A stretch of 60,387 nucleotides of DNA from Methanobrevibacter sp. Lineage in GTDB: Archaea > Methanobacteriota > Methanobacteria > Methanobacteriales > Methanobacteriaceae. Shown piece by piece: positions 7,236 through 36,100 of this stretch (the first letter of the stretch is position 1; the number at the start of each line of letters is the position of its first letter). A model generated the notes under the pieces. It saw nothing but the letters and a program-made list of their open reading frames with translations, did no database searches and was not told where the DNA came from. The position numbers and the translations under genes are program-made. Where the stretch lies: the NCBI RefSeq assembly GCF_017468685.1, contig NZ_JAFUHT010000062.1:1-60387 (forward strand). Direction: 5' to 3'.

Positions 7236-7401
7236 TCTATTAAGTATTTAAATGTATCTTATTTGTGTATACTTTATTTTATTAAACCCTAATTATGGTG
7301 TAGTTTAGTTAATTTTATATGTTCTCAAATCAAATTTAAACTTATAGTGAAAAAATTGATTTTGCTATGTTTCTTAAATCGGGCATGAAGGAGGTGAAAA
7401 G
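7236..7401 (+). promoter_or_regulatory. Promoter and long leader of the CobN-like gene
   Basis: A TATA-like GTATTTAAATGTATC lies at about 7240-7254, giving a leader of about 120-130 bases. The leader holds a 6-bp inverted repeat (AGTTTA 7302-7307, TAAACT 7337-7342) and ends with the SD GGAGGTG (7390-7396). The same region must hold the minus-strand promoter of the DUF1002 gene. Confidence 0.45.
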
Positions 7402-10400
7402 ACGAAAATTGATAATAGATTGTTATTCGCATTAATTATTTCAATATTGCTTATATTTTCTGTAGGTAGTGTATTTGCAGGAGATAATGAAACAATATCT
7501 GATGTGGTGAGTGCTCCAAGTGAGTTAGAAGAAATAACGCAAGAACATGATGTTACTGAAGTTCAATCTTCTCAATCAGATGAGGGAATGCTTGAGGCAA
7601 ATAATAATGTAATTAATGTTCACGTATATGATTCTTTTAACGAAACAGGCAAAACATGGACTGAGGATGGAATTGAGTTAAAAGGGGCAACCGTAAAGTT
7701 ATACGGCTCCCATAATAATTTGATTTCAACTCAAACAACAAACAACAAAGGTATTGCAACATTCACTGGAGTCGGCTCTCAAAAATATAATTTGGAATTT
7801 ACATATTCTACATATGATCCTATCAAATTAGATGTTGATTGCACTAATCAGGACGGTAAGACTTTAACTATTGATAACGTGATGTTTGTTCCGGATATTT
7901 TATTATTAGTGGATTATTCATCTCACAACGAAAAAGTGGACGTGTTAATGAATATGTCAAGGCGTATTGGATTCATCAGTACAACCAATTTTGATGAGTC
8001 AAGAGCATGGCTGGCGGAATGGGCTAAATATATCCACATTGATATGTTTGCTGAAAATTCAGCTTACAATAAATTCACAGCATCATATCTAAAACAATTA
8101 TTGTCAAATTCTCCGGCAAACAAGAACTATAAAGTAGCATATACTTTTGGTACTTACACTCAAGAGATATTGAATGCAACTGGTTTACATATCATAGGTG
8201 CTAGTGAAAGCAATAATACTTATGATACCATTGAAAATACCTACATCGGTTCTTATTTCCAAGCGGAAGATATTAAAGATTCTGATGTTTTACAAACAAA
8301 CATGAAAAATTACTTTGATTATGTTCGTTACCTGATTGAACCGACTAAATACTCCAATCCGACATTGACTGCAGATGGAATTCCTCTTATGAGTCCTGAA
8401 TGTGGTTTTTACCACCCGGACATTGGAATGCTCACTCTTCTTCCAAGTTCTGATTTGATTCATGACTGGATTACCAATGACCCAGGTTACACTAAAACCC
8501 AAGACGGCAGTTTAAACTGGATGAAGTTTGAATATGAATACTGGGTAGAGCATACATTGAATCCTAAGGAATTATTCAATAAATTCGAAGAACAATTAAA
8601 AACCAAATTGAATCCGGACAAAAAACTCATAGCTATTGCTACTTACTATTGTGGCGGAGACGTTGTTGATTCATTAATAAGAAGCTATGCTGCAAGTGGT
8701 AGAACCGCTTTTAACGTGTTTAAAACAAGTACCACTCCTTCCATGTCTTCTATATTGAATAGAATCACAAATGCCTCAAAAATAGGCATTTCAACAATTA
8801 CTTCTCTATATAGTTGGTCTTTAAGTTATGCTAATGGTTCAGCAGAACCTGATTTATCTGAAATAGATTTGGCAGTTCTTAAAGGGGTAAATGAAATCTC
8901 AGAATACAGTTACAATTCAGATTTAGGTCCGCAGGTCGAATGGACATATGCTGTAACCTTCCCAAGTTTCGAGGGCGTGTATGGTCCGGTTATCTTATCC
9001 TACGTTGATGGTGAGGGTAAGACTCATGTAATTCAATCTGGTGTGGATAAGATGGTCAAGTTAAGCTGCGGATGGGCAGATTTAAAGGATTTAGATAATT
9101 CCGATAAGACAATCGCAATTGTATTGTATAACTATCCGCCTGGAAAGGCAGAGATTGGTGCATCTTATCTGAATGTAACTCAATCCACATATGATTTGAT
9201 TGTTAAGTTATATGAGGCGGGTTATGATACTGGTGGAGACATCAGACAAAAAATGACCGCAAGAGAGCTTGAAGACATTATCTTTAAGATGGGTAACAAG
9301 GGTTCATGGGCATACGGTCTGTTAAGGCAGTATGTCGAGGATAATTATGATGAGTTGGTAAAGCATCATCAATTGATCTCAACAAGGGACTTCCGTAATC
9401 TTGTAAAGGACATTCCTCAACATCTAATTAAAGAAATGATTGATTACTGGGGAGCAGGTTTAGGTCCTTCAATGGTATATAATGGAACCGATGAGCAGTA
9501 CATGGTCGTTCCGGGAATATGGTTCGGTAAGGTATTTGTCACTTTCCAGCCAAGTAGAGGATGGGAAGAGCTTAAAACAATTGAGAATTACCACGACTTG
9601 ACCCTGCCTCCGACACAGTACTATGTATCCTATTATAAATGGTTGGATAAGACCGCTAAAGTAAATGCTATAGTGAATATGGGAACTCACGGAACACTCG
9701 AATGGCTGCCGGGTACAAACCTTGGTGCCAATGAAGGTGACTGGACCTTTGAGTTAACATTAAACCCAACATTATATCCATATATTGTATCAAACCCTGG
9801 GGAAGCTATGGTTGCACGGGATAGAATTGCAGCATTACTTATAACTCACATGACTCCTGCAATGGTTACTTCCGGTCTGTATGGTAATTATACTGTATTG
9901 AATAACTACATCAACTACTATAAGGATCAGGTAAAACTTAATGTAACATCTAATGCCGAAGAGTATAAGGCCAAGATTTTAAAATTGGCTCCAACTTTAG
10001 GCTTTAGAAACTTCACAGGAGAAAATGAGACATTCCAGGAATGGATAGATGACTTGCACTTGTATCTTGAAGCAATGGAAGATGATTTCATCACCTACGG
10101 TTTGCACACTCTCGGTAAAATACTGACAGGAGATGAACTTGCAGAGGAAGTAATGACCATTACATCATCTCAAACAAAAATCTACAATTATGTAATGGAG
10201 TATTTATATCCTGAATTAAAGGGCAAGAATTTCAATGATGATGTTCAGGGAAATATTGAATATTTGGCTCAGGCCAGTGCCATTAAGCAATTCCTATTGA
10301 ACTATATTTCTCAATTGGTTAACGGTTCATCTGTAGATGAGCTCACAGGCAAATATAATATAGCTAAAGGCTCATCATTATACAATGCAACTGCATATGC

Positions 10401-12267
10401 TGCACAAGTGATAGTCAATATTCAAAACAACAATGAATGGAATGCGATTTTCACTGCATTGCAGGGAGGGTATGTTCCTGCAGGATTGTTTGCAGACCCT
10501 TCATATGGGGATTCAATTCCAACCGGTTATGACGGTTATGCGTCTGACCCTACAAGGATGCCTTCAGAGTCAGCTTATGAGTCCGCTGTCAAAATCGTGG
10601 ATTTATTGCTTAGCCAATACTATGAAAAACACGGCAAATGGCCGGAATTAACTTCATTGATTTTATGGGGTACTGAAATTTCAAGGACTGAAGGAATCGG
10701 TGTTGCCGAATTCTTATACTTCCTCGGATGCAAACCGGTGTGGGCTGACAACGGTAAGGTAATAGGTGTTCAAAAACTTCCATTGGAAAAATTGACCGTT
10801 AAATTGTCAAATGGCACAGTTCTAAACAGGCCTAGAATTGATGTGTTTGCAAGCATCGTTACAAGCAACAAGGATTGGCTTAACTGGATGTTGACTGCTG
10901 TAAAACTTGCAGCATTTGCAGAAGGTGAAAATGAAACAAACAACTATGTAATTAAGCATTACAATGAAAATCCAATGCTTGACCGTTTATTTGGTCTTCC
11001 GGGTAATGTGCTTGAAGGAACAGGTATGTCAACACTTATACCAAACACTGCGGACTGGGAAAAATCCACAGTAAATGAAGTATTGATGGACATATACCTT
11101 TCAAGAGTTTCATTCTCATGGACAATTGATGATGACGGCAATATTGACATTAAAAATCAAAAGGAAAACTTCAAGTATCTGCTTGGTAAAACTGATTTGA
11201 TTACTCAAAACTTTGACAGTACTTGGAGACTCTTCGATTCAGACGATTACTATGACTGGTTCGGTGGATTATACAATGCTGCAAACATATTAAGAGAAAG
11301 AAACGGTTTGTCTCGTCCGGATACTGCATTTGTAGATATCAGGAACAAAAACAAATATGTTGCAAGAACCTATCAGGAAGAAATCGAGTATGAAAGTAGA
11401 ACAATGCTTCTAAACCCTAAATATTACATGCCGCTCATTACCGGTGGCGGATCTGGTATGAATGCATATGCTGCAAGATACCAGAACATGTTCGGTGGTT
11501 TGACCGTATCCAATGAACAATTGGGTAAACAATTGGGTGAACAAATGTCTAATGAATTATTAGGCATGAGCGGATACATTGATGGAGCAACCTCTTCATT
11601 CGGTTATCAGACTTCCCTATTGTGGATGGTTTACTTGGCTGATCAGGGAACTTGGGACGGTGATGCAAGCACAGTTCAAAAGCTTATTGACGAGTACATG
11701 AGACAAGTTATTGAATATGGTGTTGCATGTTGTCACCACACATGTAAAAACCTGGCTTTCAATGCTAAAATTATTCAAATGAGTTCTCTAACTCCTGCTC
11801 AAAAGGCTAAGTTTGCAGAAATCCTGGCTCAAGCAACAAACACTGACCCATTATATCAAATGCCTGACGAAGAAGGAACTTCCGGTGACAATAGTGGTTC
11901 CAATAGTGGATCCTCTAATAACAATGGTCAGGACAGTTCAAATGCACAGCAATTGGCAAACGGTACATCCCAAGACAAATCAAGTAGTAGTGATGGAGGA
12001 AATACAGGATTCGGTGCAGATGCTTCTCCAAGTGGTGATGCAAAATCTGCAAGTGAATCTGCAAGTGACGCTTCATCTGCTTCAGCAAGCAGTGCTGGTG
12101 AATCCGGCAGTAAAGCTTATGAATTGTCTGAGCAGTCAGCGGCTAAATCAGCTAGTGCAACTGAATCAAGCATGCCAATATTTGTTATTATTGCAGTGCT
12201 CATCTTAATTGCAATATTCCTTGTGGGATATGTAAGAAACGATGAAGATGAATATGATGATTATTAA
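7402..12267 (+). CDS. Exported, membrane-anchored CobN-like (cobaltochelatase large subunit family) protein
   Basis: About 1621 residues. CobN/BchH proteins are the large subunits that insert Co or Mg into tetrapyrroles and normally act in the cytoplasm. Here a signal peptide (LLFALIISILLIFSVGSVFA) leads an acidic spacer and one Ig-like domain (about residues 70-150). The CobN domain follows (about 160-1490), with VNMGTHGTLEWLPGTNLG, PITGGGSGMN-like glycine turns and a GVACCHHTCKNL metal-ligand-like motif. A Ser/Gly/Asn-rich linker (about 1495-1590), a C-terminal membrane helix and the tail VRNDEDEYDDY complete it. The SD at 7390-7396 is 5 bases before ACG 7402, which reads MKIDNRLL. ATT 7408 and TTG 7420 (23 bases from the SD) are the alternatives. 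Substrate and activity outside the membrane are unknown. No ChlI/ChlD partner is in the window. Confidence 0.85.
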   Translation, partial: TKIDNRLLFALIISILLIFSVGSVFAGDNETISDVVSAPSELEEITQEHDVTEVQSSQSDEGMLEANNNVINVHVYDSFNETGKTWTEDGIELKGATVKLYGSHNNLISTQTTNNKGIATFTGVGSQKYNLEFTYSTYDPIKLDVDCTNQDGKTLTIDNVMFVPDILLLVDYSSHNEKVDVLMNMSRRIGFISTTNFDESRAWLAEWAKYIHIDMFAENSAYNKFTASYLKQLLSNSPANKNYKVAYTFGTYTQEILNATGLHIIGASESNNTYDTIENTYIGSYFQAEDIKDSDVLQTNMKNYFDYVRYLIEPTKYSNPTLTADGIPLMSPECGFYHPDIGMLTLLPSSDLIHDWITNDPGYTKTQDGSLNWMKFEYEYWVEHTLNPKELFNKFEEQLKTKLNPDKKLIAIATYYCGGDVVDSLIRSYAASGRTAFNVFKTSTTPSMSSILNRITNASKIGISTITSLYSWSLSYANGSAEPDLSEIDLAVLKGVNEISEYSYNSDLGPQVEWTYAVTFPSFEGVYGPVILSYVDGEGKTHVIQSGVDKMVKLSCGWADLKDLDNSDKTIAIVLYNYPPGKAEIGASYLNVTQSTYDLIVKLYEAGYDTGGDIRQKMTARELEDIIFKMGNKGSWAYGLLRQYVEDNYDELVKHHQLISTRDFRNLVKDIPQHLIKEMIDYWGAGLGPSMVYNGTDEQYMVVPGIWFGKVFVTFQPSRGWEELKTIENYHDLTLPPTQYYVSYYKWLDKTAKVNAIVNMGTHGTLEWLPGTNLGANEGDWTFELTLNPTLYPYIVSNPGEAMVARDRIAALLITHMTPAMVTSGLYGNYTVLNNYINYYKDQVKLNVTSNAEEYKAKILKLAPTLGFRNFTGENETFQEWIDDLHLYLEAMEDDFITYGLHTLGKILTGDELAEEVMTITSSQTKIYNYVMEYLYPELKGKNFNDDVQGNIEYLAQASAIKQFLLNYISQLVNGSSVDELTGKYNIAKGSSLYNATAYAAQVIVNIQNNNEWNAIFTALQGGYVPAGLFADPSYGDSIPTGYDGYASDPTRMPSESAYESAVKIVDLLLSQYYEKHGKWPELTSLILWGTEISRTEGIGVAEFLYFLGCKPVWADNGKVIGVQKLPLEKLTVKLSNGTVLNRPRIDVFASIVTSNKDWLNWMLTAVKLAAFAEGENETNNYVIKHYNENPMLDRLFGLPGNVLEGTGMSTLIPNTADWEKSTVNEVLMDIYLSRVSFSWTIDDDGNIDIKNQKENFKYLLGKTDLITQNFDSTWRLFDSDDYYDWFGGLYNAANILRERNGLSRPDTAFVDIRNKNKYVARTYQEEIEYESRTMLLNPKYYMPLITGGGSGMNAYAARYQNMFGGLTVSNEQLGKQLGEQMSNELLGMSGYIDGATSSFGYQTSLLWMVYLADQGTWDGDASTVQKLIDEYMRQVIEYGVACCHHTCKNLAFNAKIIQMSSLTPAQKAKFAEILAQATNTDPLYQMPDEEGTSGDNSGSNSGSSNNNGQDSSNAQQLANGTSQDKSSSSDGGNTGFGADASPSGDAKSASESASDASSASASSAGESGSKAYELSEQSAAKSASATESSMPIFVIIAVLILIAIFLVGYVRNDEDEYDDY

Positions 12268-12301
12268 ATTAATCATCTATTTTTTACTTTTTTTATTTTT
12301 T
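12256..12301 (+). terminator. Terminator of the CobN-like gene
   Basis: GATGATTA and TAATCATC form an 8-bp stem with loop TTAAAT that spans the stop codon. Three T-rich runs follow. Confidence 0.7.
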
Positions 12302-12307
12302 TAGAAA

Positions 12308-12408
12308 TTTTTAAATATGCTTTATTTTCATAAATAATAATATATTAGATTATTTTTCAATTTAAGTTAAATAATCAATAATTGAATTTAATGTGAATGA
12401 GGTATAAT
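12308..12408 (+). promoter_or_regulatory. Promoter and leader of the 12409 adhesin gene
   Basis: TATA-like TTTTTAAATATGC at about 12309-12320. The leader has an 8-bp inverted repeat (GATTATTT 12348-12355, AAATAATC 12369-12376, 13-base loop). The SD TGAGGT (12398-12403) precedes ATG 12409. Confidence 0.5.
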
Positions 12409-15400
12409 ATGGTTAAAAAAATTAATATTTTACTATTTTTATTGCTGGTAATAGTATCTATCGGTGCTGTGAGTGCAGCTGATGACTTAAATGATACTGT
12501 TCAATCTAGTAATGAAGTTATTTCTGATTTGGATGAAATTTCCTCAGATGAAGTTAATGCCTTGGAAGTTTCAGAAAATATGTATACGGTAAATCAAAGC
12601 AATTATAATACTTACTTTAATAATAATGGCGAATCAACATCTTCCGTTAAAAGTGGAGATACTCTCTATATTGATGGTGATTTTTCCAATAAGAATTTTA
12701 CATTCAGAACTCCTGTAAACATTGTTGGGAAAACGGATAATAATTTGCAAAATTGTATTTTTACATTTTATGAGGGGTCATCTGGAAGTAATATTTCAAG
12801 TTTAAACATTGCCAATACAATTAATTATCATTATGGTATATTTTTGAACGGTGCTAGTAAATGTTTAATCACAGGATGTAATATAGTAAACAAGGGATTA
12901 TCCTCCTATCCGATTTGTGTTGCCAATAATGCTAATTACAATAATGTTACAGATAATTATTTAAAAGCATATGGTATAAGAGAAGGATATGCTACTTGGT
13001 CTTTATTCCCTTTAGTTGTTAGTGGGGCTCATTATAATTATATTGCTAATAATAGGATTGAATGTCAGGATGCAAATGGTATTTACTTGTCCAGTTATTC
13101 AGGAGGTCCATTGAAAGGTGGTGATTCTAATTTTAACATGATTTATAATAATACTGTGCATTATAATGTTTTACCTACTTCATGGTCTTGGGGTATTCAG
13201 ATGATGGGGTGGAATAATACTGCAAAAGCCAATAAGGTTATTGGTGCATATTTAGGTATATCAGGTTCTCAAAACAGTATTGTAGTTGATAATACTATAA
13301 TTAATATTACTGGAGCTGATTATAATCATGTGGGTGTTGAAATTGGTGGAGATGGAGCTATTTCAGTCTCTAGAGGATCTATCGTTCGAAATAACACTAT
13401 AATCAATGCAAAAGTAATGACTACTGGTGCAGGAATTACAGTTTCTGATGGGTGTACAGTAGAAAATAATAACATTGAAGTAAAATTGAATGGGGTTGGA
13501 ATAGCGCCAACAGGCACTGGCATACTTATTAAAAACAATACCTTAACTGTTGAAGGAGGGGCAGGTATAAGCAATTATAATGGAGGTATATCTTCTGTTA
13601 ATAACATAACTATTATCCAAAACAATATTGTCAGCAAATATGGTGTTGGTATTTCAATTAAAAAGACAAGTTCTAAAAACAGGCCTAAAAATATAATCAT
13701 CAGATCCAACACAATAAACACTAACAATTCTATTTCAATCGATGGTAAAGATATTGATCCATCCTCCCTTTGGGATATAGATTATAATAATATTATAAAT
13801 AAGAAAGCAATTGTTTCAACTCCTGAGGGGGAGTATGACCCATCTAAATATTATTACAATTATAAAGGAACTATTCATAACATCACTCCTGAAAATTATG
13901 AGGATTATATAGACAATAATGGGATAATGAAGGGTTCAAAAATTTCCGATGGTGATATATTATCATTCTCAGGGGAATTTTCAAATAAATTCATTTATGT
14001 GAATAATGCAGTGAAAATCACAGGAAATAATCCTACATTCTTTAATACTACATTCAGAGTATCTTCTGGTGGGGTCTGGATTGAAAATCTAAATATTGTC
14101 AATAATCGTTGTGAAAGAATTAATGCATGGGGACTACTTATTTATAATGTAACATCTGTAACCGTTCTTAATTGTACAATAGATGTTTATGATCCAAATG
14201 CGGCATATACTATTTACGTTTTGGAATCAAATGAAATAGATATAATTAATAACACTTTGTCTTCAGAAGGAAAGTATTTAACTTACACTATATTAGCACA
14301 TACGGTTTATGATTGTAAAATAATAGGTAATACTATTTTTACTAATGGAACAGGGGAAGTTTATAAATTTGAAGGTGAACATTGTCTGGAAGGTAATTCC
14401 GTTTGTACTGATGGTTCAACTGTTTGTACTGATGGGTCTACTGTCTGTACTGCAGGTAATTCAATTGGCGGTAGCCATGTTTTAAAAGAGGTGTATAGAA
14501 CTTACGGTATCCTGATGGTTTTCTCATCTGATAATACTGTTTCTAAAAATAATGTTAGAGTCACTTCAAAATTAAATAAAACTTACGCACCCGCTAATTC
14601 AACAAACTCTATTGTGGGTATAGATTTATATTATAATAGTCATAATAATGTTTTCTCTGAAAATGAGGTGACCGTTTGGGGTAATGATAATTATCTTTAT
14701 GGAATGGGAGTTTTAGGTTATTATACAACAATGACTGCTCCTTTAGGTCAAGGTGCGGAAAACAACGAATTTTTAAATAATAATGTTAATGTTAAAGGAT
14801 ATTATTGTGCTGAAGGAATTATTATAGGTTCCTCATCAGAGAATACTGTAGTTGCTGGAAATGTCATAGATGTGAGCTCCGCATTAGTGGTTTATGGTAT
14901 CACTTTGGAAGTGTCTCAAAAATCTACTGTTAACAATAATCATATCACATTAAATTCTGAGGTTATATATGGAATTGAGGCGTTTGACTCAAGTAACAAC
15001 GTACTAAATAATAATGATTTAAAAATCAATGCAAAACAAGCTTATGGTATTGTAATGTCTAAGGGGAATTATAATGAGATAAATTCAAATATCATATTAA
15101 TCGAACTTGAAGATGATTCTACTGTACAGAATGTTTCTGTTAAACATTCAGATCAAATAAAACCTGGAATTGCGGGAATTTGTCTTCAATCTGTTTCATT
15201 AAATAACACTATGATTGATAATAATATAACAATTTCAAAAGGCTATGTAATCAATATGGATGAGGATGCAATTAATAATTTAATCTCAAATAATTATTTG
15301 AACTCTACATTAGGCACTGGAAACAATGCTATAAACTGTACAGAAAATAATACTATTGAAGACAATTATGTGCATTTGGTCATCGGAAATTTTGAAGATG

Positions 15401-16719
15401 TCAATATCAAATACTTTGAAAATGGTACTTTAATATTCAAAACAGATGATGAGAATCTAAACGGTGCAAAAGTCGAATTCATTGATTTAGATGGAAAAAT
15501 AATTAATGTGACTGAGATTTCTGAGGGTATTGCCTCATTTACATATGATTTTGATAGATTGGAACCAGCTTTATATCCATATTATGTAAAAATATATAAA
15601 GAAAATTATAAGGTCACCACTTTGGAATGCCTAGTTGAAATAAGTGATGGTGATTTGATTGTATCCGTTAAAAATATAACCGGAACCTTTGGGCGTAATA
15701 CAAATTATTTTGCTGTCGTTAAAAATATTTTGGGTGAAGGAATAGCAGATATTGTCGTCGAATTCTATGTGGATGATGATGGATATCCAGTTTATGTCGG
15801 TAAGGCCACTACCGATAAGGATGGTATTGCATCCCTCACAACTGAACTTCCTAAGGTTTATGGTGAAAATCCTACAGTTTTAGCAAAAATCGATAACCCA
15901 TATCATTTCAATCCAACATCTGCAACTGCTAATGTAAGTGCAATTTGGTTGGTTGATACTAAAATTGTAATTAACAGCAATATTTATCCAAAAGGCAATT
16001 TAGCTATATTGAAAGATAGTAACGGAAAAGTTTTAGCTAATAAACAAGTAACTATTTTAATAGGATCTGGAAGTTATCAAGTTTCTACTGATTCAAATGG
16101 AATTATCACAATGCCTTCAATTTCAAGAGGAAACTATGTTGTGTCTGTTTCATTTGCGGGGGATGATGATTACTATGATTCTAAAAACAGTGCAAAAATA
16201 ACTGTTTTACCATCCATATTTGAGAATAAAGACTATTCTGTCTATTATGGAAACACTATTAAATACAAGGTTCGTGTTAAAGGATCTGATGGTAAATACA
16301 GTGCAGGAAATCAGGTAACTATTAAAGTTAACGGCAAAACCTATAATGTCAAGACAGATAAGAACGGTTATGCAACACAGGCTTTAAAACTAAAATCTGG
16401 ATCTTATACAATCACTGCAGAGTTTAATGGGGATAAAGCTTCAAATAAAATTACATTTAAACCAACATTAACTGCTAAAAACATAGTTAAGAAAAAAGCT
16501 AAAAAAATTAAATTCTCAGTCAAAGTAGTCAACAAAAATGGCAAAGCTGTTAAAAAGAAAAAAGTAACCTTTAAGATTAAAGGTAAAAAATACACTGCTA
16601 AAACCAACAAAAAAGGTGTAGCTACTGTATCAATCAAGAATTTGAAGATTGGTAAGTTTACCATAACCTCAAGCTATGGTGGTTGCACAATTAAAAATAC
16701 TATTAAAATTAAAAAATAA
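12409..16719 (+). CDS. Secreted adhesin-like protein: beta-helix, Ig-like repeats, basic C-terminus
   Basis: A 1436-residue surface protein. ATG 12409 is 4-5 bases after a GAGGT SD; the upstream ATG 12397 contains the SD. The signal peptide is VKKINILLFLLLVIVSIGAVSA. Two long right-handed parallel beta-helix regions (about 50-480 and 490-1000) carry NosD-like repeats of the type NNTI, NNYI and ITGN. About four Ig-like domains (about 1000-1340) and the lysine-rich cassette (about 1340-1436, LTAKNIVKKKAKK...TNKKGVATV) follow. It is very rich in N-x-S/T sites. A cysteine-bearing VCTDGST repeat interrupts the second helix near residue 665. A role in adhesion or wall association is inferred from architecture. 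No membrane anchor is seen. Confidence 0.83.
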   Translation: MVKKINILLFLLLVIVSIGAVSAADDLNDTVQSSNEVISDLDEISSDEVNALEVSENMYTVNQSNYNTYFNNNGESTSSVKSGDTLYIDGDFSNKNFTFRTPVNIVGKTDNNLQNCIFTFYEGSSGSNISSLNIANTINYHYGIFLNGASKCLITGCNIVNKGLSSYPICVANNANYNNVTDNYLKAYGIREGYATWSLFPLVVSGAHYNYIANNRIECQDANGIYLSSYSGGPLKGGDSNFNMIYNNTVHYNVLPTSWSWGIQMMGWNNTAKANKVIGAYLGISGSQNSIVVDNTIINITGADYNHVGVEIGGDGAISVSRGSIVRNNTIINAKVMTTGAGITVSDGCTVENNNIEVKLNGVGIAPTGTGILIKNNTLTVEGGAGISNYNGGISSVNNITIIQNNIVSKYGVGISIKKTSSKNRPKNIIIRSNTINTNNSISIDGKDIDPSSLWDIDYNNIINKKAIVSTPEGEYDPSKYYYNYKGTIHNITPENYEDYIDNNGIMKGSKISDGDILSFSGEFSNKFIYVNNAVKITGNNPTFFNTTFRVSSGGVWIENLNIVNNRCERINAWGLLIYNVTSVTVLNCTIDVYDPNAAYTIYVLESNEIDIINNTLSSEGKYLTYTILAHTVYDCKIIGNTIFTNGTGEVYKFEGEHCLEGNSVCTDGSTVCTDGSTVCTAGNSIGGSHVLKEVYRTYGILMVFSSDNTVSKNNVRVTSKLNKTYAPANSTNSIVGIDLYYNSHNNVFSENEVTVWGNDNYLYGMGVLGYYTTMTAPLGQGAENNEFLNNNVNVKGYYCAEGIIIGSSSENTVVAGNVIDVSSALVVYGITLEVSQKSTVNNNHITLNSEVIYGIEAFDSSNNVLNNNDLKINAKQAYGIVMSKGNYNEINSNIILIELEDDSTVQNVSVKHSDQIKPGIAGICLQSVSLNNTMIDNNITISKGYVINMDEDAINNLISNNYLNSTLGTGNNAINCTENNTIEDNYVHLVIGNFEDVNIKYFENGTLIFKTDDENLNGAKVEFIDLDGKIINVTEISEGIASFTYDFDRLEPALYPYYVKIYKENYKVTTLECLVEISDGDLIVSVKNITGTFGRNTNYFAVVKNILGEGIADIVVEFYVDDDGYPVYVGKATTDKDGIASLTTELPKVYGENPTVLAKIDNPYHFNPTSATANVSAIWLVDTKIVINSNIYPKGNLAILKDSNGKVLANKQVTILIGSGSYQVSTDSNGIITMPSISRGNYVVSVSFAGDDDYYDSKNSAKITVLPSIFENKDYSVYYGNTIKYKVRVKGSDGKYSAGNQVTIKVNGKTYNVKTDKNGYATQALKLKSGSYTITAEFNGDKASNKITFKPTLTAKNIVKKKAKKIKFSVKVVNKNGKAVKKKKVTFKIKGKKYTAKTNKKGVATVSIKNLKIGKFTITSSYGGCTIKNTIKIKK
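14401..14463 (+). repeat. Three tandem 21-base repeats inside the adhesin gene
   Basis: Units at 14401-14421, 14422-14442 and 14443-14463 encode VCTDGST, VCTDGST and VCTAGNS. The first two differ at only two bases. They put regularly spaced cysteines into a protein that otherwise has few. Confidence 0.85.
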
Positions 16720-16749
16720 AGATTTTTAATCTTTATTTTACTTTTTTTT
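16715..16749 (+). terminator. Terminator of the 12409 adhesin gene
   Basis: AATAAAGATT and AATCTTTATT form a perfect 10-bp stem with loop TTT, starting in the stop codon. A run of eight T follows. Confidence 0.8.
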
Positions 16750-16767
16750 CAATTTTTCTTTAATAAC

Positions 16768-16874
16768 TTTTAAATATATTTAATCTATATATTCTTAATT
16801 ATAGTCAAATAATTAACTAACTGTCATATATTTCAGACTATAATCTTATTTAACTATTCAAAAGAGGTGTAAAT
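16768..16874 (+). promoter_or_regulatory. Promoter and leader of the 16875 adhesin gene
   Basis: TATA-like CTTTTAAATATATTTAA at about 16767-16783. A perfect 9-bp inverted repeat (ATTATAGTC 16798-16806, GACTATAAT 16836-16844) lies in the leader. The SD AGAGGTG ends at 16869, 5 bases before the proposed ATT start. Confidence 0.5.
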
Positions 16875-20369: not shown

Positions 20370-20481
20370 AATCTATATATATTATATTTGATAATAGTTA
20401 TAGTATAGTCAATTTTTTATTATATATTCTCAATATAATTTGACTTGTTTTGTTGAATCAATATAAAGGGAGGTGAAAAAG
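20370..20481 (+). promoter_or_regulatory. Promoter and leader of the 20482 surface-protein gene
   Basis: TATA-like CTATATATATTATA at about 20372-20385. AGTCAA (20407-20412) and TTGACT (20440-20445) form a weak inverted repeat. The SD GGGAGGTG ends at 20475. Confidence 0.45.
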
Positions 20482-26347: not shown

Positions 26348-26422
26348 CTTTTTTATATCTCTTTTTATAAAAAATATAATATGTTTGACTTTTTTATAAA
26401 GTATGATTAAAAAGAGGTGTTG
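26348..26422 (+). promoter_or_regulatory. Promoter and leader of the 26423 adhesin gene, possible SD-masking hairpin
   Basis: TATA-like CTTTTTTATATCTC near 26348-26361. CTCTTTTT (26359-26366) can pair with AAAAAGAG (26409-26416), which includes the start of the SD AGAGGTG (26413-26419). The leader is shorter than in the neighbouring genes. Confidence 0.4.
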
Positions 26423-29400
26423 ATGATTTTATATAAAAAATTCATGTTAATAATATTATTGTCATTGGTATTGATGTCTTCATTACTAGTAGTTAGTGCA
26501 AATGACGATAATTCAACAGTCATTGAATCATCAAATAATCAGGAAATGGTTATATCTGATGACATTGATGATCCAATCCAAGAAACCCATGAATATTATG
26601 TTAGTGCTGATGGTGATGATTTAATAGGAAATGGGACCTCAGAATCTCCATTTGCTTCAATAGGCTTTGCTGTCAGTGTAGCTAATAACAATTCAAAAAT
26701 TATAGTTAAGGATGGAACATATAAAGGCTCATCCAATACTGGAATTACCATTAACAAGTATTTGACAATTGAAGGCCAATCCCAACCAACAATCAATGGT
26801 GAAAATAAATATGCCTTCTTCAAAATTAATGGGGGCTCATCATTAATCTTAAACAACATCAAATTCATTAATGGTAAAACCGACTCATATTCACAATTGG
26901 GAGCTATAAACAATCAAGGCAATTTAGTAATAAACAATAGTTCATTCAATACAATCAGAACTCTAATGGGTGTTGTATACAATGAGGGAACATTGCTGAT
27001 GAATAATACTAATGTGGGCAATGCCCACTCCTCGAATATGGCTCAGATAATCACTAATGTTGGGGATTGCACTGTAGACAATTCCAAATTCACTGCAACC
27101 CAAGCCTACTCTAGTGAAGTTGGAGTGACAGTGTATAACTATAATACTTTAAGGGTCTTGAATTCAAATATAGGCTATTTGCAGTCAAACATTGTGTATG
27201 ATGAATATAATTACGTACCGGGGTTTGTCTTCATTAACAATTCATTATTCACAAATTTTGAAATAGAAAATGTCACTGCAAGGATTTACAACTCAAAAGT
27301 TAATGGAATGCCTGCTTTTAAGGGTGCTGACGTGTTTATGGACAACACTCGATTTGTTCAATCTTCATCAATAAGCGTATTGTCAATTATAGATTCAAAT
27401 TTCACTGCAACACATTCCATTTTTGATTACAGTATTTCATGCTCTTACACTGCCTTAAACATAACATATTCAACTATTCTAGGTTCAATCTATGGTGGCG
27501 GTAAAAGCGGGTATCTGTTTGCGCCATTTAACTGGTGGGGATCAAACAAAGGACCTTCATTCGATTATTTCAGAACCAATTATGTTAAATACTGGGCAGT
27601 GGCAACTTTCGAATCAGAAGACGGAAACTTATCAGTTGGAACAAATTCAAAGTTCATAGTCTCTCTCAATAAATGGAGTGACGGCAACAACATTTATGAT
27701 TTCTCAGAAAATGAGTATCTGCCTGGTAGGCTGGTTTCATTCGAAGCGCAAAACGGCAATTTCATGCATTCTTCAGGAACAATCAATAATAATTTCACCA
27801 ACTATCTGAACAACAATATCCTGGATTGCCTGGTGTATGCCGTGATTGACAATGAAAGATTAATGCTCACAATAGGCAAGGGAATGTCAGCATACCAATA
27901 TTTCGTATCTCCAGATGGCCATGACGGTCCTGAGGATGGAACCCTTGAAAAACCGTTCTGGTCACTGCAATATGCAATACAAAAGGTTGGAAATGGCAAT
28001 ACCATCTGTCTGCTTGAAGGATTGCATAAGCACAATGCAGATTCCAATGTGGTGGTGGATAAGAATGTGACAATCGTAGGATTCGGCGATGTAACATTAA
28101 AAAGAGCCAACAACTTCAATGTATTTATAGTTAAAGAATGGGGTAGTCTCACACTTAAAAACATTAAGTTCACAGTTGATATAAGGGAATATGACGATTC
28201 AATAGTCTACTGTACTGGCGGAAACGTTAGTGTGGTCAACTGCTCATTCACAGGCATCACATCTCCGTCTGTAATATTCACCACTTCCGGCAATAAAAAT
28301 GACGGTTTGGTTTTCATGGAGGATTCAAGTTTTAAAGATATTGTAGGAGCGGTTTCAAGGGGAACTGCACGGGTTTATGTTAAAAATTCAACATTCGAGC
28401 AGGTTTCAAATTATTATAGATATCAGGGTATGGAAAATTATAATGCAATATTCCCAATCACTTCCTCTATAGAAATATACGATTCAATATTCAGGCAGAA
28501 TGCAGTGGGAATTGTCAACTTGCACCCGTTTTCATATTCATCATCATCTCTTTTAGGTGCAACATACTCTGAATACCATGATAATTACCAAAGATATGCA
28601 TATGTTGAAAATACAATATTTGAAAACAACATATTCAAAAGTACAAGCTATTCAAGTAGTGGAATAGGATTAAACACTCATGATGATTACGGCTCATTTG
28701 ATGGATTCATTAAAAACTGCACATTCACTGGAAACACTGGTAAAATCGCTTTTGCAACCAATATTGATTCATGTTACTTTTACAATAATCGGGGAGACGC
28801 ATACGGAGGAGAGGCATTAGTGACAGCAGCACTGATAGAAGACTCCTACTTTGAAGGAAACTTAAACCAGTACATTAATCATGATAATGCATATGTTGGA
28901 GAGGGGATAGCTTCAGCAGACACTATCTTAACCTCAATATTCATGAACAATAGGGCATCATACGGAGGAGCAGTCTCATCCTCCAAACACGTGCATTACT
29001 GTGTATTCATAAACAATACTGCAAAATACTCCGGAAACGATATTTACTCATCTTCAGGGGATGTGGACTACTCAAGCAATTGGTGGGGAAATAATCAAAA
29101 GCCGACTACCGATAACATTTTCATCTTCCTTGGTAATCTAAAACTTAATGATTGGGTTATAATGTCCCTTGAGAGCGTTTCCGGCAATGTCATTGAGGCT
29201 GCATTGAACAGGGTGGTTGATGATGACGGAAACATCAGAGTGATTGGTCATCCAATGCCTGTAAGGCCGGTTTACTTCATGATTAATGGAGGAAACATCA
29301 CTCCTGAATTCACTTATCTCAAAGAGGGCCGTGCAAATGCAACAATATCATATGACTTCAACGCAGAGGATTTGAAGGTATATGCAAGGATAGACAATCA

Positions 29401-32400
29401 GGTATTGGAGTTGGATGTTCTAAACTCCCACACTCAACTGGTCATGGACAATGTGACCTTTAAAGGCAAGGACAATAAGTATAACATTACCTTGATTAAT
29501 GTAAACGGTCGCCAATTGTTTAATCAAACATTGAAAGTTGAAATAATAGATTCCAATGGGGTTAATCAGATTTTTGAAGTGGTAACTGATGAGAAGGGTT
29601 ATGTGGAGTTCAATGTGGACTATCCTATAGGGGAGTATACAGTAAACGTTAACTATCTTGGCAACGGCTACTTTGACAAGTGCAATGCTACAGCTAAAAT
29701 CGAGGTATTGGCATCCATAACAAGCATAAACGCTTATGACGAAACATATTACGGTAAAAACAATAGGTATTATGCCATTTTATACGGTGAAAACGGAAGA
29801 AAACTGATAGGCATGCCTATCACATTCACAGTCACCAACGAGAAGGGAATCTCAAGCCAGGTTGAAGGCATCACCGACCACTACGGCCAAGCGGAGATAG
29901 TGTTCAGTCTTGACGTTGGAAAATACACTATAAAATCAGAATATAAAGGCGATTCATGGTATGCTCCATGTTCCATAGTGAAACAAATCGAGATTAAACC
30001 TGCCAATTCAACTTTAATCGTGCCAGAAGTTACTTTATACGGTCAGGGTGGAATTTACAACATTACCTTAAAGGATGTATATGGGACCTTGATACGAGGG
30101 GAAAACATTGTTGTAACATTGTCACAAGGGGACCTGTATGACAGATTCGTTATTAAAACGGACGATAACGGTAGGGCAAACCTTGCAATTAACTATCTTC
30201 CGGGAACATATAATGTTAAAGCGGAATTTGTAGGAGATGACATTTACGGTCCAAGTGCTGCAAGCAATGTGATTCATGTGGAAAAGGTACTGACAATAGT
30301 TTCAGGATTCCATCATGCAACAATACCGTTAAAAGGCATCTACACTATTGTTTTAAGCGACATGTATGGCAGGAGAGTTAGCAATGAGACAATAATCTTG
30401 AATTGCTATAAGGGCAAACTAATAAAAACATATGAGATGAACACAGACTCCAATGGTGAAGCATCCTTTATAATTGATTTGGATGAGGGAAGCTACTTGG
30501 CAACATTCGATTATGGTGGCAATGAATGGTATGCTGATGCAACCAATGCTGCAACAATTATTGTCAGCAAGGAAGCAGTATTGCAGAAGATCCAAATAAA
30601 CTCCACAGACCTCGTCCAGTATTATGGTGAAGACAAATTCTTCATCATAGAATTCAATGATCCCAACGCATACAGCCAATATGGAAAGAAAATCCAAGTG
30701 TCCTTGACTTCCGGAGAATGGTCACAGGCCTATGAAGTAATCACTGATGCATTCGGATTGGGACGTTTGAAAATCAATTTAAACCCTGGAGAGTATAATA
30801 TTACTTATAAATACTCCAATGACTATTATAACATTTTCGGTTCAGGGTCAAATAAAATAACTGTCTATAAAATGCCGACAACAATATTGGGAAAAGACAT
30901 TATAGTGAACTATGGTGAGGCAAGGCAATATGAAATAACCCTCAAGAACGTTAATAATGTGCCGATTAAAAACATGCAGGTTCAGGTTGACCTTAACGGA
31001 ACAAAGTATAATCTAACCACTAATGATAATGGAATCGCTAAACTCCTTCTCAATCTTGAGGAAGGAGCTTATAATATCACTTACAGTATGGACAATCCGA
31101 ATTATGTTCCATCTAAAGGATCTTCAACAATACTTGTAGTCGATTCTGATAAGTTATCTTCTACATTATCAGCCAGTGACATGAACGCATTGGATAATGA
31201 GACAAGCCAGTTTAAAATCATATTGACTGACCCGTTGGGAAACGCAATCGGTAGCTGTGAAATCACCCTTGAAATATTCACAGTTGACGGCGATTCAGTC
31301 GTTAACCTTACCAAAACAACAAACAGGAACGGCATAGTGACATTTGATTTGGAATTGGAATATGGCAACTATATTGCAAAAGCCACATTTAAAGGAAATG
31401 AAAGATACCTTGCAAGCAATTCAATCAACACTATCAGCATAGAATCATCAGACAATAAAATAAAGACAATAATCTATAAGGGAGAGACAACAATCAAAAA
31501 CGCAAAATATTATATTGTCTTGTCAGACGTTAACGGAACATTGCTCGCCAATAAATCAGTCACATTCTCCATTGGAAATAATAATTACCCTACATTGACA
31601 GACAGTGAAGGCAGGGCCTATCTGAATGTTGACTTATATCCGGATGTTTACACTGTCAAGGCAGTATTCAATGGTGATAAGCAATATAAAAAGGCTTCAT
31701 CCTCCATTAAGCTCATGGTTTCCGGTGATTCCACACAGCTGTTCGCTTTAAAGCTAGTCAAATATTATCGTAACGGAACACAATTCCATGCTCAAGTGGT
31801 TGATGACAGCGGCAGGGGACTGGCCAACAAAACAATCTCAGTTCTCTTAAATAACGTGACTTATAATTGCACAACTGATGAAAACGGTTGGATAACCTTG
31901 AAAATAGATTTAAAACCAGGTCGTTATGATGTTGAATGCTACTATTACGGAAGAATACCATATGAAAATTCATTTAACAGAACCACAATAACAGTTTTAA
32001 AAACCATTGAAGGGGAGAATGCAATTAAGTATTATGGTGAAACACCATACCTGACAGTGAAATTCCTTGAAGGTAGTGGGAAACTAATCAGAAATGAGCA
32101 ATTCCTAATAGGCATAGATGGAACCAATTACATTGCAACAATTCCAAGCAGCGGAATATTCGACTTCAACCTCAATATAGCATCAGGCAGTCACATCATT
32201 ACCGTAACTAATCCATATGACGGTTTGACCGAAAGATTCAACCTGGAGATTTTACCGACAATCTTTGCAGACAGATTCACCAAGCTATTGGGTGACGGCA
32301 GTTCTTATTCAGTATTTTTCATTGATAGGAATGGAACCCCATTAATCAACACCAATGTTGATGTGATAATCGACGGCATAAAATATGATTACAGGACAAA

Positions 32401-33025
32401 TGAATTCGGTGAAATAAATGTGGATATGGAGTTAGCGCCTAAAAGTTACCTTGTAACTGTTATCAATCCGGATTCAGGGGAATATATTGAAAGCATCATT
32501 AATGTTTATGCTCCGATTATTGAGAATAGGGATTTGGTAATGTATTATACTGGTGGAAATTATTATACTGTTAAGATAATAGGCCATGACGGCAAGGCTG
32601 TGGGAAGTGGAGTTCCAGTCAAATTCAGCATTGCAGGTAAAAACTATAATGTTAAAACTGATAGGAATGGATATGCTTCACTTAAAATTAGTTTAAAGCC
32701 GAACAAATATGTTGTAACTGTTCATTATGCCAATTACAAGGTTTCAAATAAAATTACAGTCAAGCCTGTTTTGACAGCTAAAAACATTTCCAAGAAGAAA
32801 GGCAAAGTAATTAAGTTCAAAGCTAAACTGGTCAACGGAAAGGGCAAGCCCCTTAAGGGTAAAAAAATCACTTTTAAATTTAAGGGTAAAAAATATAAGG
32901 TAAAAACCAATAAAAAAGGTGTTGCAACATTAAAGCTTAAATTAAAACTTAAGGTGGGCAAATACACTATAAAAACAAGTTATGGTAAATCCACCATTAA
33001 AAATAAAATCAAAATTAGAAAATAA
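26423..33025 (+). CDS. Giant secreted adhesin-like protein: beta-helices, about a dozen Ig-like repeats, basic C-terminus
   Basis: About 2200 residues. ATG 26423 lies only 3 bases after the SD; ATT 26426 would have the 6-base spacing seen in the neighbours, and GTG 26417 is inside the SD. The signal peptide runs to SANDD (LIILLSLVLMSSLLVVSA). Two beta-helix domains each begin with a YYVSADGDDLIGNGTSESPF or YFVSPDGHDG motif (from about 55 and 495) and end at NWWG motifs (residues about 370 and 890). From about 1000 to 2100 come about 12 Ig-like repeats with (T/K)D(N/E)NGxA turns and Y(Y)G(E/G) starts. The lysine-rich cassette closes the protein (about 2100-2200). Many N-x-S/T sites are present. 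No membrane anchor. Confidence 0.83.
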   Translation: MILYKKFMLIILLSLVLMSSLLVVSANDDNSTVIESSNNQEMVISDDIDDPIQETHEYYVSADGDDLIGNGTSESPFASIGFAVSVANNNSKIIVKDGTYKGSSNTGITINKYLTIEGQSQPTINGENKYAFFKINGGSSLILNNIKFINGKTDSYSQLGAINNQGNLVINNSSFNTIRTLMGVVYNEGTLLMNNTNVGNAHSSNMAQIITNVGDCTVDNSKFTATQAYSSEVGVTVYNYNTLRVLNSNIGYLQSNIVYDEYNYVPGFVFINNSLFTNFEIENVTARIYNSKVNGMPAFKGADVFMDNTRFVQSSSISVLSIIDSNFTATHSIFDYSISCSYTALNITYSTILGSIYGGGKSGYLFAPFNWWGSNKGPSFDYFRTNYVKYWAVATFESEDGNLSVGTNSKFIVSLNKWSDGNNIYDFSENEYLPGRLVSFEAQNGNFMHSSGTINNNFTNYLNNNILDCLVYAVIDNERLMLTIGKGMSAYQYFVSPDGHDGPEDGTLEKPFWSLQYAIQKVGNGNTICLLEGLHKHNADSNVVVDKNVTIVGFGDVTLKRANNFNVFIVKEWGSLTLKNIKFTVDIREYDDSIVYCTGGNVSVVNCSFTGITSPSVIFTTSGNKNDGLVFMEDSSFKDIVGAVSRGTARVYVKNSTFEQVSNYYRYQGMENYNAIFPITSSIEIYDSIFRQNAVGIVNLHPFSYSSSSLLGATYSEYHDNYQRYAYVENTIFENNIFKSTSYSSSGIGLNTHDDYGSFDGFIKNCTFTGNTGKIAFATNIDSCYFYNNRGDAYGGEALVTAALIEDSYFEGNLNQYINHDNAYVGEGIASADTILTSIFMNNRASYGGAVSSSKHVHYCVFINNTAKYSGNDIYSSSGDVDYSSNWWGNNQKPTTDNIFIFLGNLKLNDWVIMSLESVSGNVIEAALNRVVDDDGNIRVIGHPMPVRPVYFMINGGNITPEFTYLKEGRANATISYDFNAEDLKVYARIDNQVLELDVLNSHTQLVMDNVTFKGKDNKYNITLINVNGRQLFNQTLKVEIIDSNGVNQIFEVVTDEKGYVEFNVDYPIGEYTVNVNYLGNGYFDKCNATAKIEVLASITSINAYDETYYGKNNRYYAILYGENGRKLIGMPITFTVTNEKGISSQVEGITDHYGQAEIVFSLDVGKYTIKSEYKGDSWYAPCSIVKQIEIKPANSTLIVPEVTLYGQGGIYNITLKDVYGTLIRGENIVVTLSQGDLYDRFVIKTDDNGRANLAINYLPGTYNVKAEFVGDDIYGPSAASNVIHVEKVLTIVSGFHHATIPLKGIYTIVLSDMYGRRVSNETIILNCYKGKLIKTYEMNTDSNGEASFIIDLDEGSYLATFDYGGNEWYADATNAATIIVSKEAVLQKIQINSTDLVQYYGEDKFFIIEFNDPNAYSQYGKKIQVSLTSGEWSQAYEVITDAFGLGRLKINLNPGEYNITYKYSNDYYNIFGSGSNKITVYKMPTTILGKDIIVNYGEARQYEITLKNVNNVPIKNMQVQVDLNGTKYNLTTNDNGIAKLLLNLEEGAYNITYSMDNPNYVPSKGSSTILVVDSDKLSSTLSASDMNALDNETSQFKIILTDPLGNAIGSCEITLEIFTVDGDSVVNLTKTTNRNGIVTFDLELEYGNYIAKATFKGNERYLASNSINTISIESSDNKIKTIIYKGETTIKNAKYYIVLSDVNGTLLANKSVTFSIGNNNYPTLTDSEGRAYLNVDLYPDVYTVKAVFNGDKQYKKASSSIKLMVSGDSTQLFALKLVKYYRNGTQFHAQVVDDSGRGLANKTISVLLNNVTYNCTTDENGWITLKIDLKPGRYDVECYYYGRIPYENSFNRTTITVLKTIEGENAIKYYGETPYLTVKFLEGSGKLIRNEQFLIGIDGTNYIATIPSSGIFDFNLNIASGSHIITVTNPYDGLTERFNLEILPTIFADRFTKLLGDGSSYSVFFIDRNGTPLINTNVDVIIDGIKYDYRTNEFGEINVDMELAPKSYLVTVINPDSGEYIESIINVYAPIIENRDLVMYYTGGNYYTVKIIGHDGKAVGSGVPVKFSIAGKNYNVKTDRNGYASLKISLKPNKYVVTVHYANYKVSNKITVKPVLTAKNISKKKGKVIKFKAKLVNGKGKPLKGKKITFKFKGKKYKVKTNKKGVATLKLKLKLKVGKYTIKTSYGKSTIKNKIKIRK

Positions 33026-33060
33026 AATGATTAAATTCATTTTATTTATTCCTTTTTTTC
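33020..33060 (+). terminator. Terminator of the 26423 adhesin gene
   Basis: AAATAAAATGA (33020-33030) and TCATTTTATTT (33037-33047) form an 11-bp stem overlapping the stop, followed by seven T. Confidence 0.8.
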
Positions 33061-33079
33061 AATTTCATTTGAAATATTT

Positions 33080-33194
33080 TAAAAATTTATATATTATAAA
33101 TTCCAACATATATTTATCATACTTTATTTTTTTTCAATTATATTTAATCAACTTAAACACAGTATGATATCAAAAATAAATGAGGGGTGAGATT
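33080..33194 (+). promoter_or_regulatory. Promoter and leader of the 33195 adhesin gene
   Basis: TATA-like AATTTATATATTATA at about 33084-33098. A perfect 9-bp inverted repeat (TATCATACT 33115-33123, AGTATGATA 33161-33169) fills the leader. The SD GAGGGGTG ends at 33189. Confidence 0.5.
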
Positions 33195-36100
33195 ATTAAG
33201 AAATCACTATCGTTCCTTGGAATGATATTATTAGTTTTCCTGATACTCGGATCAGTATCCGCAACAGATTCAGATGATTTAATTGCATCAGATGAAGCTG
33301 CAGATGATTTAGGCTCTGATAATCTGGAAAATGATATTTTAAACGAGGAAGAAGTCGATGTAGATGATGAAAATTTCGCTGCACTCGACAATGCAATACA
33401 AAATGTTGACGCTGGAGGAACAATTCATTTAAACACAAACGTGACATTAAATGGAGGAACCTCTGGTGAAGAAACAACATATGCGAATGGAATGACAATA
33501 AGTAAAGACTTAACCATCAACGGTTACAATCAGGCGATTAATGCAACCGATGCAAATGGAAACAAAGTTCGCTTGTTTACCATTGCTTCAGGGGCTCACG
33601 TAACCTTGAAAGATTTAACTATCACTGGCGCAAGCTATATAGGTGATGGTAATCAAATAGGTGGTGCAATTACTGTAAACGGAGGATACTTAACATTGAT
33701 TAATGTAAACTTCATTAACAATTATGCACAGATGACCGCAAACAATAAAATCGGTTCAGCTGCAGTGATGGTCTATAATGGAGGTACAGTTAATGTTACA
33801 GGAGGATCCTTTGTAAACAACACCCTTAAACATGACCAGGCTCCAAATACTGCAGGTGGTGGAGCTGCAATAAATGCCAATCAAGGAAGTTCCAGCATAT
33901 ATGTTGATGGAACTCTTTTCGAAAACAACGAAGCTATTTTCGGTAAAATTTCAAATCAGGCAGGGGGTGGAGCAATTGCTTCATTAAATTCTATTGTATC
34001 AATTGCCAACTCTGAATTCGTTAACAACAGATTGACTTGTGATGCCGCAAGAGCTATTGCAGGTGCAGTTTATGCGATTCCGAACGCTCGCAGTTCTATG
34101 GTTGTAAATACTACTTTTAGAGATAATTCTGCACATTCTGTTTCTGCACTCTACTTCAGAGGAACTGATTATGTCGTAACAGGTTGTCTATTTGAAGGCA
34201 ATGTGGCTGATGACTCAGTATCTGCTCAGTTTGAAAGTGGTGGGGAAATACATCACAATGCATTTACTGACGGTAAAATTAGCAAGAATCAATATGTAAA
34301 TGAAAATAAGGATTATTACTGGTATTACAACTGGTGGGGAACAAATGAACCAAGCGATGTTGGCCTTGATTTGACCAATTGGATGGTCATGACTATTGAA
34401 CATGATGACAATAATGTTGTAGTAAAATTGACTAAACTCAATGATGGCACCGAATTAGGTGATTTAGCATTATTGCCAACTATGGAAGCTACAATAACCG
34501 GTTTAGGTGAAACTAAAAAGGTTAAAATTGTTAAAGGTATTGGAACATTAACATTAGATGGGCCAATTACAGATTATGCAGGCAATACTGTTGTCGCCAC
34601 AGTTAATAATCAATCTTTAAGTTTTGTTGTAAATGATAAAGTCAAAAGTTTCGCTGAACTAGAAAGTTATATCCTAAATACTCCTGCAGGAGAAACCTAT
34701 GATGTAAAAGGTGATTTCCAACTAAACACTGGCGTGACTGGTGAAGAAACTACCTACGCACAGGGTATCACAATAGACAAAGATATAACTATAGATGGGC
34801 ATGGTTTAACAATTAATGCAACCGATGCTAATGGAAATAAAGTAAGAATATTCAAAATAGTTAATGGCGCAACCGTAACATTAAGAGATATAATATTGAC
34901 TGGTGCTTCTGCCGATAATGGTGGAGCTATCCTTGTTGATGATGGAACATTAACTTTAAATAAAGTTACTTTCACTGAAAACAATGCAACAAACGGTGGA
35001 GCAGTTTATTCAGCTGATGGTAACGTCAATATTGTAAATTCTACATTTGTGAAAAATACTGCAACCTCTGCCGGTGCAGTTCAAATTGAAAAAGGTACTA
35101 TTGAAGGCTCTATTTTTGAAGGCAATTCCGCAGGTGCAGTGACTCTTGGAAGTGAGGCTAGTGCTAATTATAATGTATTCTCTAACGGACAAACAGTTTC
35201 CGGAACAGGTAACTTCGATTATAACTGGTGGAAAACCAATGCTCCTGAAAATGTTGGAGTAACATTAAATAACTGGATTGTAATGAACATTACAAATGAC
35301 GATACTTTAATCAAGGTATCATTCACAACTTTAAACAATGGTGCAAATGCTCCAAACCCTGAAAAATTCCCAACATTGCCGGTCACCGTTTCTTGGGATG
35401 ATGTTGTAAAAGAAACAACTCTTGAAAACGGCATTGCAACTGTCGAATTTGATAAAGCTGTTACATATGACTCAAATTATAATGTTTCAATAAAAGTTTC
35501 AGAAGTTAGCACAGATTACACTTTAAAACCAATTGATTCTGATCATGATAATTTCGCTCAATTAGACTCTAAAATCAAAGACGCTAATGAAAATGATGTC
35601 ATTGATTTGGAAAATGGAGTAAAATTAAATGAAGTGAATATTAATGAAGAAACTACTTATAAAAACGGTATTGTAATCGATAAAAGCATCACAATCGATG
35701 GTCATGGATTCACAATCAATGCAACTGATGCAAGTGGAAATAAAGTTAGGATCTTCAACATTGCAAATGCAGATGTGACATTGAAAAACATGATTTTAAC
35801 AAGCGGGTCTGTTGCTTCTCCAGGCGGTGCGGCCATTTACATTAATGGTGGCTCATTGACTTTAATCAATGTTACTCTCATTGACAATAAGGTAACTGCT
35901 TTAACTGGTGCAGCATTATCCGCTAATAATGCACAGGTAACTGTTATAAACAGTAGCTTTATCAACAACACTTTAACCAAAACAGACTATTCCGCTTTAG
36001 GAGGGGGAGCTGCTATTTACTTGAATGGCGGTTCATTAAATGTGGATAATTCATTATTCGAAGGAAATGTATATAATGGATATTCTTATTCCTCTTCTAG

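Follow-up and report, generated by a model that had tools for sequence, protein, structure and literature searches.

This locus raises the question of whether archaeal genes for large surface proteins can begin at codons other than ATG, GTG, and TTG, and what such starts might do. The window, namely the whole 60,387-nucleotide (nt) stretch analysed (contig NZ_JAFUHT010000062.1 of Methanobrevibacter sp., assembly GCF_017468685.1), carries six surface-protein genes in tandem on the + strand at positions 7402–42896, as found by tracing each frame back to its upstream stop. A preliminary description of this DNA had placed the starts of four of these genes at ACG, ATT, ATC, and ATT behind strong Shine–Dalgarno (SD) sequences. 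The four sites read as claimed, with a spacing of 5–6 nt, and comparison with relatives supports these near-cognate codons, each one base from AUG, as the starts of the genes at 7402, 16875, 20482, and 33195. We assign a probability of about 0.8 to the reading that a near-cognate start combined with a near-perfect SD is a conserved throttle on the synthesis of these large surface proteins and, probably, of the one encoded at 26426. The genes and their SD sequences are as follows.

7390..7397, + strand: extended SD GGAGGTGA of the CobN-like gene, a 9-nt match counting the A at 7389
7402..12267, + strand: CobN/Mg-chelatase-like surface protein, start ACG 7402–7404, with a signal peptide, a PF02514 match, and a C-terminal membrane anchor
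12409..16719, + strand: beta-helix/Big_1 adhesin-like protein with an ordinary ATG start, taken as the control neighbour (ATG in orthologs L003, L009, L053, L055, L057, L059, and L169)
16864..16869, + strand: SD GAGGTG of the 16875 gene, 5 nt before ATT
16875..20294, + strand: Big_1/Big_3_5 adhesin-like protein, start ATT 16875–16877
20469..20476, + strand: SD GGAGGTGA of the 20482 gene, containing the in-frame GTG 20473, 6 nt before ATC
20482..26289, + strand: adhesin-like protein with Chlam_PMP repeats, start ATC 20482–20484
26426..33025, + strand: Big_3_5/Big_1 adhesin-like protein, candidate starts ATT 26426 or ATG 26423
33195..42896, + strand: giant Big_3_5 adhesin-like protein, start ATT 33195–33197, with GGGGTGA 5 nt upstream

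Behind each of the four near-cognate sites, the translated frame runs through Lys/Arg codons, a hydrophobic core, and an A-x-A type cleavage site, which bears out the signal peptide with a Lys/Arg n-region described earlier. The in-frame alternatives also lie where they had been placed: GTG 20473 and ATG 33180 share bases with the SD or adjoin it, and TTG 7420 and TTG 16890 are at the edge of the hydrophobic core.

Conservation of the start codons among relatives

The start-codon position was compared in up to 67 Methanobrevibacter genomes. For the CobN family, 55 rows of the genus were readable, with ACG in 35, ATC in 10, ATT in 4 (one of which, L069, is ambiguous), ATA in 2, and CTG, TTG, ATG, and ACA in one each; a near-cognate codon (ACG, ATC, ATT, ATA, or CTG) was present in 52. 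These codons stand for Thr, Ile, Leu, or Met, and the trait that they share, ACA aside, is a distance of at most one base from AUG. As ACG is so rare in the codons of the window's own genome (0.8 per 1000, or 0.08%, vs 24.8 per 1000 for ACA), a conserved Thr residue cannot account for ACG at the CobN start. In a tree computed with the first 45 residues left out, at least nine start-codon changes were counted within the genus, nearly all inside the near-cognate set; ATH (ATA, ATC, or ATT) was basal, and a single switch from ATH to ACG marked the root of a clade of 41 rows. SD and start were separated by 5 nt in 44 and by 6 nt in 8 of the near-cognate rows, and the codon kept its frame with the protein. 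As the spacer shifts by one base while the codon holds frame, the GTG within the SD is out of frame in most relatives. The SD form kept in most CobN orthologs is AGGAGGTGA, and ACG 7402 itself starts 5 nt past GGTG. In related genera, the CobN start is ATT and ATC in g5 and g6, and ATG or GTG in g2, g3, and g16. A CobN-like tandem paralog (L263, G059:C21) has a CTG start behind GGAGGTGAAAAT.

ATT was found in all 25 orthologs of the 16875 gene, at a spacing of 5 in 24 of them. Many of these orthologs have an in-frame TGA overlapping the SD (TGAGGTGGAATTATTAAA), so that no upstream codon can be the start there. The 20482 family was more mixed, with ATC in 7, ATA in 6, ATT in 6, and ATG in 1 (L049), that is, near-cognate in 19 of 20 orthologs; in one member (L045), an ATG stands immediately 5' of the ATT. 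Seven relatives of the 20482 gene from named Methanobrevibacter genomes, mostly of deer and rumen, have ATC, ATA, or ATT, never ATG, 5–6 nt past the SD. The 33195 gene has three close orthologs, all with ATT, and its in-frame upstream ATG is not kept in them. Identical AGGAGACAATATTATTAAGCGA starts (ATT) were also seen in another surface-protein family (L106, L107, and L108 in G044, G060, and G056).

The fifth gene had been called ambiguous between ATG 26423 and ATT 26426. This choice stands, and almost every family member has the GTG within the SD in frame; judging from the orthologs, however, the gene probably belongs to the same near-cognate kind, with ATT 26426 the likelier start. ATT lies 6 nt past GGTG in most orthologs, ATG directly precedes it in the window's own gene and in L329, and ATG replaces it in L333, L334, and apparently L340. 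An alternation of ATG and near-cognate codons at the same position, which had been suggested as a check, therefore does occur among relatives (L075 in the CobN family, L333 and L334 here), occasionally.

Shine–Dalgarno strength and gene class

The mean energy of SD pairing with AUCACCUCCU was −13.8 kcal/mol in 100 near-cognate family members, compared with −7.0 kcal/mol in 53 ATG signal-peptide genes and −5.5 kcal/mol in 781 other ATG genes, a contrast to be read with caution in that a near-cognate site was called only with an SD match of at least 4 nt and the orthologs are not independent samples. CobN orthologs with ATG or GTG in other genera have a weak SD (mean of −6.6 kcal/mol), and this contrast within one family across genera is the cleanest part of the comparison. 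The 3' end of 16S rRNA was not found in the gathered loci. RNA folding around the start showed no difference between near-cognate and ATG genes (p = 0.2).

A near-cognate codon at SD distance was found in 12 of 61 signal-peptide genes and in 22 of 682 others (Fisher p = 4e-6) in stretches of G000, G008, and G007 totalling 1.36 Mb, with the ambiguous 26423 gene not counted as near-cognate. This agrees with the earlier argument that a concentration in one functional class speaks against random error. Among the 682 other genes, near-cognate codons were outnumbered by unrelated ones (22 vs 65), as intragenic noise predicts. Scanned with no limit on position, the genome yielded largely SD noise from within genes, and a position-limited scan took its place. 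The window's own genome has further near-cognate members in L024 (Big/PMBR/transglutaminase), L026 (Big/glycosyl-hydrolase-like), and L175 (Big-domain).

Within the cluster, PF02514 (E = 1.5e-176) spans residues 389–1365 of the CobN-like protein, most of its length, and the signal peptide and C-terminal anchor suggest that this protein is extracellular. A secreted CobN/Mg-chelatase-H-like protein occurs almost throughout the genus, in 56 of 67 genomes, and its gene comes first in the surface-gene cluster. The features by which adhesin-like proteins are recognised (a signal peptide with Big or beta-helix domains) were found in the cluster proteins with two exceptions, the 20482 protein having PMP repeats only and the CobN-like protein having only its signal peptide and C-terminal anchor. 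The adhesin-like proteins described from Methanobrevibacter are similar in their signal peptide and Big, beta-helix, and PMP domains (PMC2812497, PMC11532034); they differ in that non-AUG starts were not found reported for them in the literature searched. In M. ruminantium, the locus number of BchH (mru2047) adjoins those of the adhesin-like proteins mru2048 and mru2049 (PMC2812497, PMC11532034).

A dyad was found on comparing the upstream regions of L120–L143 (16875 family) and L030–L048 (20482 family).

16801..16840, + strand: dyad TAGTCAA...GACTA before the 16875 gene, close to the inferred transcription start
20407..20446, + strand: dyad AGTCAA...TTGACT upstream of the 20482 gene, from the upstream-region comparison

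Its form is TAGTCAA-N26/27-TTGACTA, with half-sites 33 nt apart, located about 75 nt (16875 family) or 42 nt (20482 family) before the start. It was present in 18 of 25 and 10 of 19 members, respectively, vs 4% of 301 genes. Both arms covary in L038, L039, L041, and L048 (TAATCAA/TTGATTA), and GGCTA variants retain G-U pairing. About 30 nt further upstream is a TATA-like TTTAAATA, which would put the dyad at the 5' end of the transcript, where it may be an operator or a leader hairpin. As a class-wide signal it was rejected, since the strict pattern marks one near-cognate gene each in G000 and G007 and is not a common denominator.

Alternative explanations

Translation might begin at a canonical codon in or upstream of the SD (GTG 20473, ATG 33180, or a leaderless upstream ATG), which would make the ACG or ATH codon internal. 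GTG 20473 and ATG 33180 are in frame within the window, and several spacing-6 orthologs, as well as nearly all members of the 26426 family, have an in-frame GTG in the SD. However, a spacing of 5 puts this GTG out of frame in 44 of 52 CobN, 13 of 19 20482-family, and 24 of 25 16875-family near-cognate members, and 60 of 99 near-cognate cases have no in-frame ATG, GTG, or TTG between the upstream stop and the hydrophobic core (24/52 in the CobN, 12/19 in the 20482, 22/25 in the 16875, and 2/3 in the 33195 family). Moreover, the codon at this position may specify Thr, Ile, Leu, or Met, and the forms it takes are alike only in their nearness to AUG, and an SD overlapping its own start codon would be unable to pair; we regard such upstream starts as very unlikely. 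Automatic annotation would instead put the start at a downstream TTG or ATG inside the signal peptide, and TTG 7420 and TTG 16890 are available for this. Nevertheless, the position of the canonical codon varies among orthologs, the first one often lying 36–51 nt on within the hydrophobic core, no SD precedes it, and a start there would delete the positive n-region, which the orthologs keep in frame after the near-cognate codon. A downstream start is highly improbable on these grounds. A mutated start codon, a silenced allele, or a sequencing or assembly error might be suspected in a window taken from a 94-contig draft genome, but identical codons occur in dozens of species and frames of 1,100–3,200 codons are unbroken. 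Sequencing error is excluded because single-contig complete genomes show the same start codons (ATT in G007 and G002, ATC in G004, and ACG in G008), and the probability of this whole group of explanations is negligible. Termination–reinitiation through a mini open reading frame was also considered; ATGAGGTGG..TAA runs across the start in many 16875 orthologs, but not in the window's own gene and several others, and the candidate was discarded as not conserved.

Even if translation does begin at the near-cognate codons, these could be made efficient by RNA editing or by an initiator tRNA of their own, with no weak-start effect. The genome does hold a second, oddly built tRNA-Thr(UGU) (contig 36:264–340, L211), whose D arm is unlike that of the ordinary copy on contig 85, but this extra tRNA lacks A1-U72; ACG, ATT, ATC, ATA, and CTG would require one tRNA each, and a C-to-U change could rescue ACG only. 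The tRNA survey gave one initiator, which is of the ordinary CAU type, and a special initiator tRNA was rejected as a candidate.

3704..3780, + strand: initiator tRNA-Met(CAU), with A1-U72 and a GGG/CCC anticodon stem

The gene of this initiator tRNA sits 3.6 kb ahead of the surface-gene cluster. Special decoding or editing has, in our estimate, only a slim chance. The near-cognate starts might also be neutral relics without a control function, tolerated thanks to the very strong SD: a strong SD could buffer the loss of AUG, and several codon types do swap. Against this, ATG is favoured elsewhere, yet the CobN, 16875, and 20482 families have it only twice among about 100 orthologs; the path from ATC to ACG runs via ATG or ACC, and the ATG step was not retained; and the neighbour at 12409 in the same cluster retains ATG. 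Neutrality is unlikely, although it deserves to be kept in mind.

A proposed throttle on surface-protein synthesis

The throttle is proposed on the observed codon identity, conservation, exchange among near-cognate codons, SD strength, and class enrichment, from which we infer low or tunable expression and a dependence on aIF1. Met-tRNAi would translate from ACG, AUU, AUC, and AUU by mispairing, and the strong SD would hold the 30S subunit 5–6 nt upstream of the start. The mismatched codon would slow the commitment to elongation, and the limiting step for output would be initiation at that codon and not the binding of the mRNA. A strong SD and a weak codon may in this way limit the output of secreted surface proteins of 1,100–3,200 residues. 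Start-codon stringency in archaea is set by aIF1, aIF1A, and aIF2. The strong SD and weak codon would also leave the output of the near-cognate genes exceptionally responsive to this stringency and, since aIF1 is reported to disfavour non-canonical starts in the archaeon Sulfolobus (as cited in PMC6237735), to aIF1.

The aIF1 gene (PF01253) lies between rpl29 and rnp1, starts with ATG, and is present in complete genomes with near-cognate starts. aIF1 (SUI1) was found neither in the window's own draft genome nor in 15 further Methanobrevibacter genomes, which was treated as an assembly gap and not as a loss because rps3 of the same ribosomal operon was mostly missing from these genomes too (full-length only in G018, with a fragment in G021). 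The ribosomal operon with aIF1 and rps3 seems to be systematically missing from draft assemblies of the genus. The throttle may serve to limit very large Sec substrates or to tune the cell surface. A more far-reaching suggestion, which we hold tentatively and consider rather less probable than its opposite, is a start-codon-stringency regulon, in which surface genes would be kept without AUG so that growth-state-dependent aIF1 stringency tunes the cell surface as a group.

Several points weigh against the throttle or narrow it. Near-cognate starts are found in only about 20% of signal-peptide genes, whereas about four fifths, including the neighbour at 12409, have canonical ones, and two candidates are non-surface genes, both with an apparent start behind a good SD (L021:15476–16372, + strand, ATA, methyltransferase-like; L026:3792–4886, − strand, ATT, unassigned protein). 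Given this share and these two candidates, "class-wide control" is too strong a term. Of the shared weak-start control of adhesin genes put forward in the preliminary description, the concentration of near-cognate starts in secreted surface proteins stands, a shared regulation is conceivable, and a rule for the class is not borne out; such starts characterise some of the surface genes in some members of the family. The orthologs share ancestry, so that counts over them are not independent, and the anti-SD used is the general archaeal sequence, which may differ from this genome's own 16S end. Vesicles of M. smithii and M. intestini contain adhesin-like proteins in greater abundance than any others (PMC12134236). 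If those abundant proteins are encoded by the near-cognate genes, a throttle on amount is doubtful.

To our knowledge, prokaryotes very rarely conserve near-cognate starts across dozens of species. The known cases, infC and sigR, each concern one regulatory gene of bacteria, and no archaeal precedent came up in the papers searched. Two marks of the infC/sigR kind were found here, namely a start other than ATG, GTG, or TTG behind a strong SD at normal spacing and a non-canonical codon conserved among relatives. The infC gene (IF3) of E. coli and other bacteria has an AUU start, the change of which to AUG abolishes control (Butler 1987, as cited in PMC9845219). It is like the surface genes in this near-cognate start, but it encodes the fidelity factor itself and is autoregulated, whereas the products here are surface proteins and the archaeal aIF1 gene starts with ATG; autoregulation of the infC type was rejected accordingly. 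In Streptomyces, sigR has a GTC start with an extended ribosome-binding site (AGGAGGTG), is conserved in the genus, has been misannotated, and is repressed through IF3 (PMC5472188). It shares with the surface genes a genus-conserved non-canonical start and an extended ribosome-binding site, but it is one bacterial regulatory gene with a codon two bases from AUG, whereas the present case, known from sequence alone, concerns several unrelated archaeal surface-gene families with codons one base from AUG. Conserved non-AUG starts in chloroplasts, such as the GUG of psbC with an extended SD, limit the expression of particular genes (PMC9845219); psbC is alike in its evolutionarily conserved non-AUG start and extended SD and differs in being an organelle gene with GUG rather than AUH or ACG. 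The literature search, with subscription papers mostly outside its coverage, returned no report of non-AUG or near-cognate starts in archaeal surface genes. Non-AUG starts as such are known, and a conserved set of them in archaeal surface proteins is, as far as we found, apparently new.

In the main gut methanogens of humans and ruminants, near-cognate starts are used by surface-protein families that are unrelated to one another. Automatic annotation takes only ATG, GTG, and TTG as starts, so the signal peptides of these proteins would be cut or misplaced, and surface-antigen lists for methane-mitigation work would be biased by the misplaced signal peptides. The near-cognate surface genes form a natural gene set for asking what sets start-codon stringency in archaea. 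If it is true, a stringency regulon in Methanobrevibacter and related genera would be an archaeal counterpart of infC/sigR control, extended over a whole gene set of one functional class.

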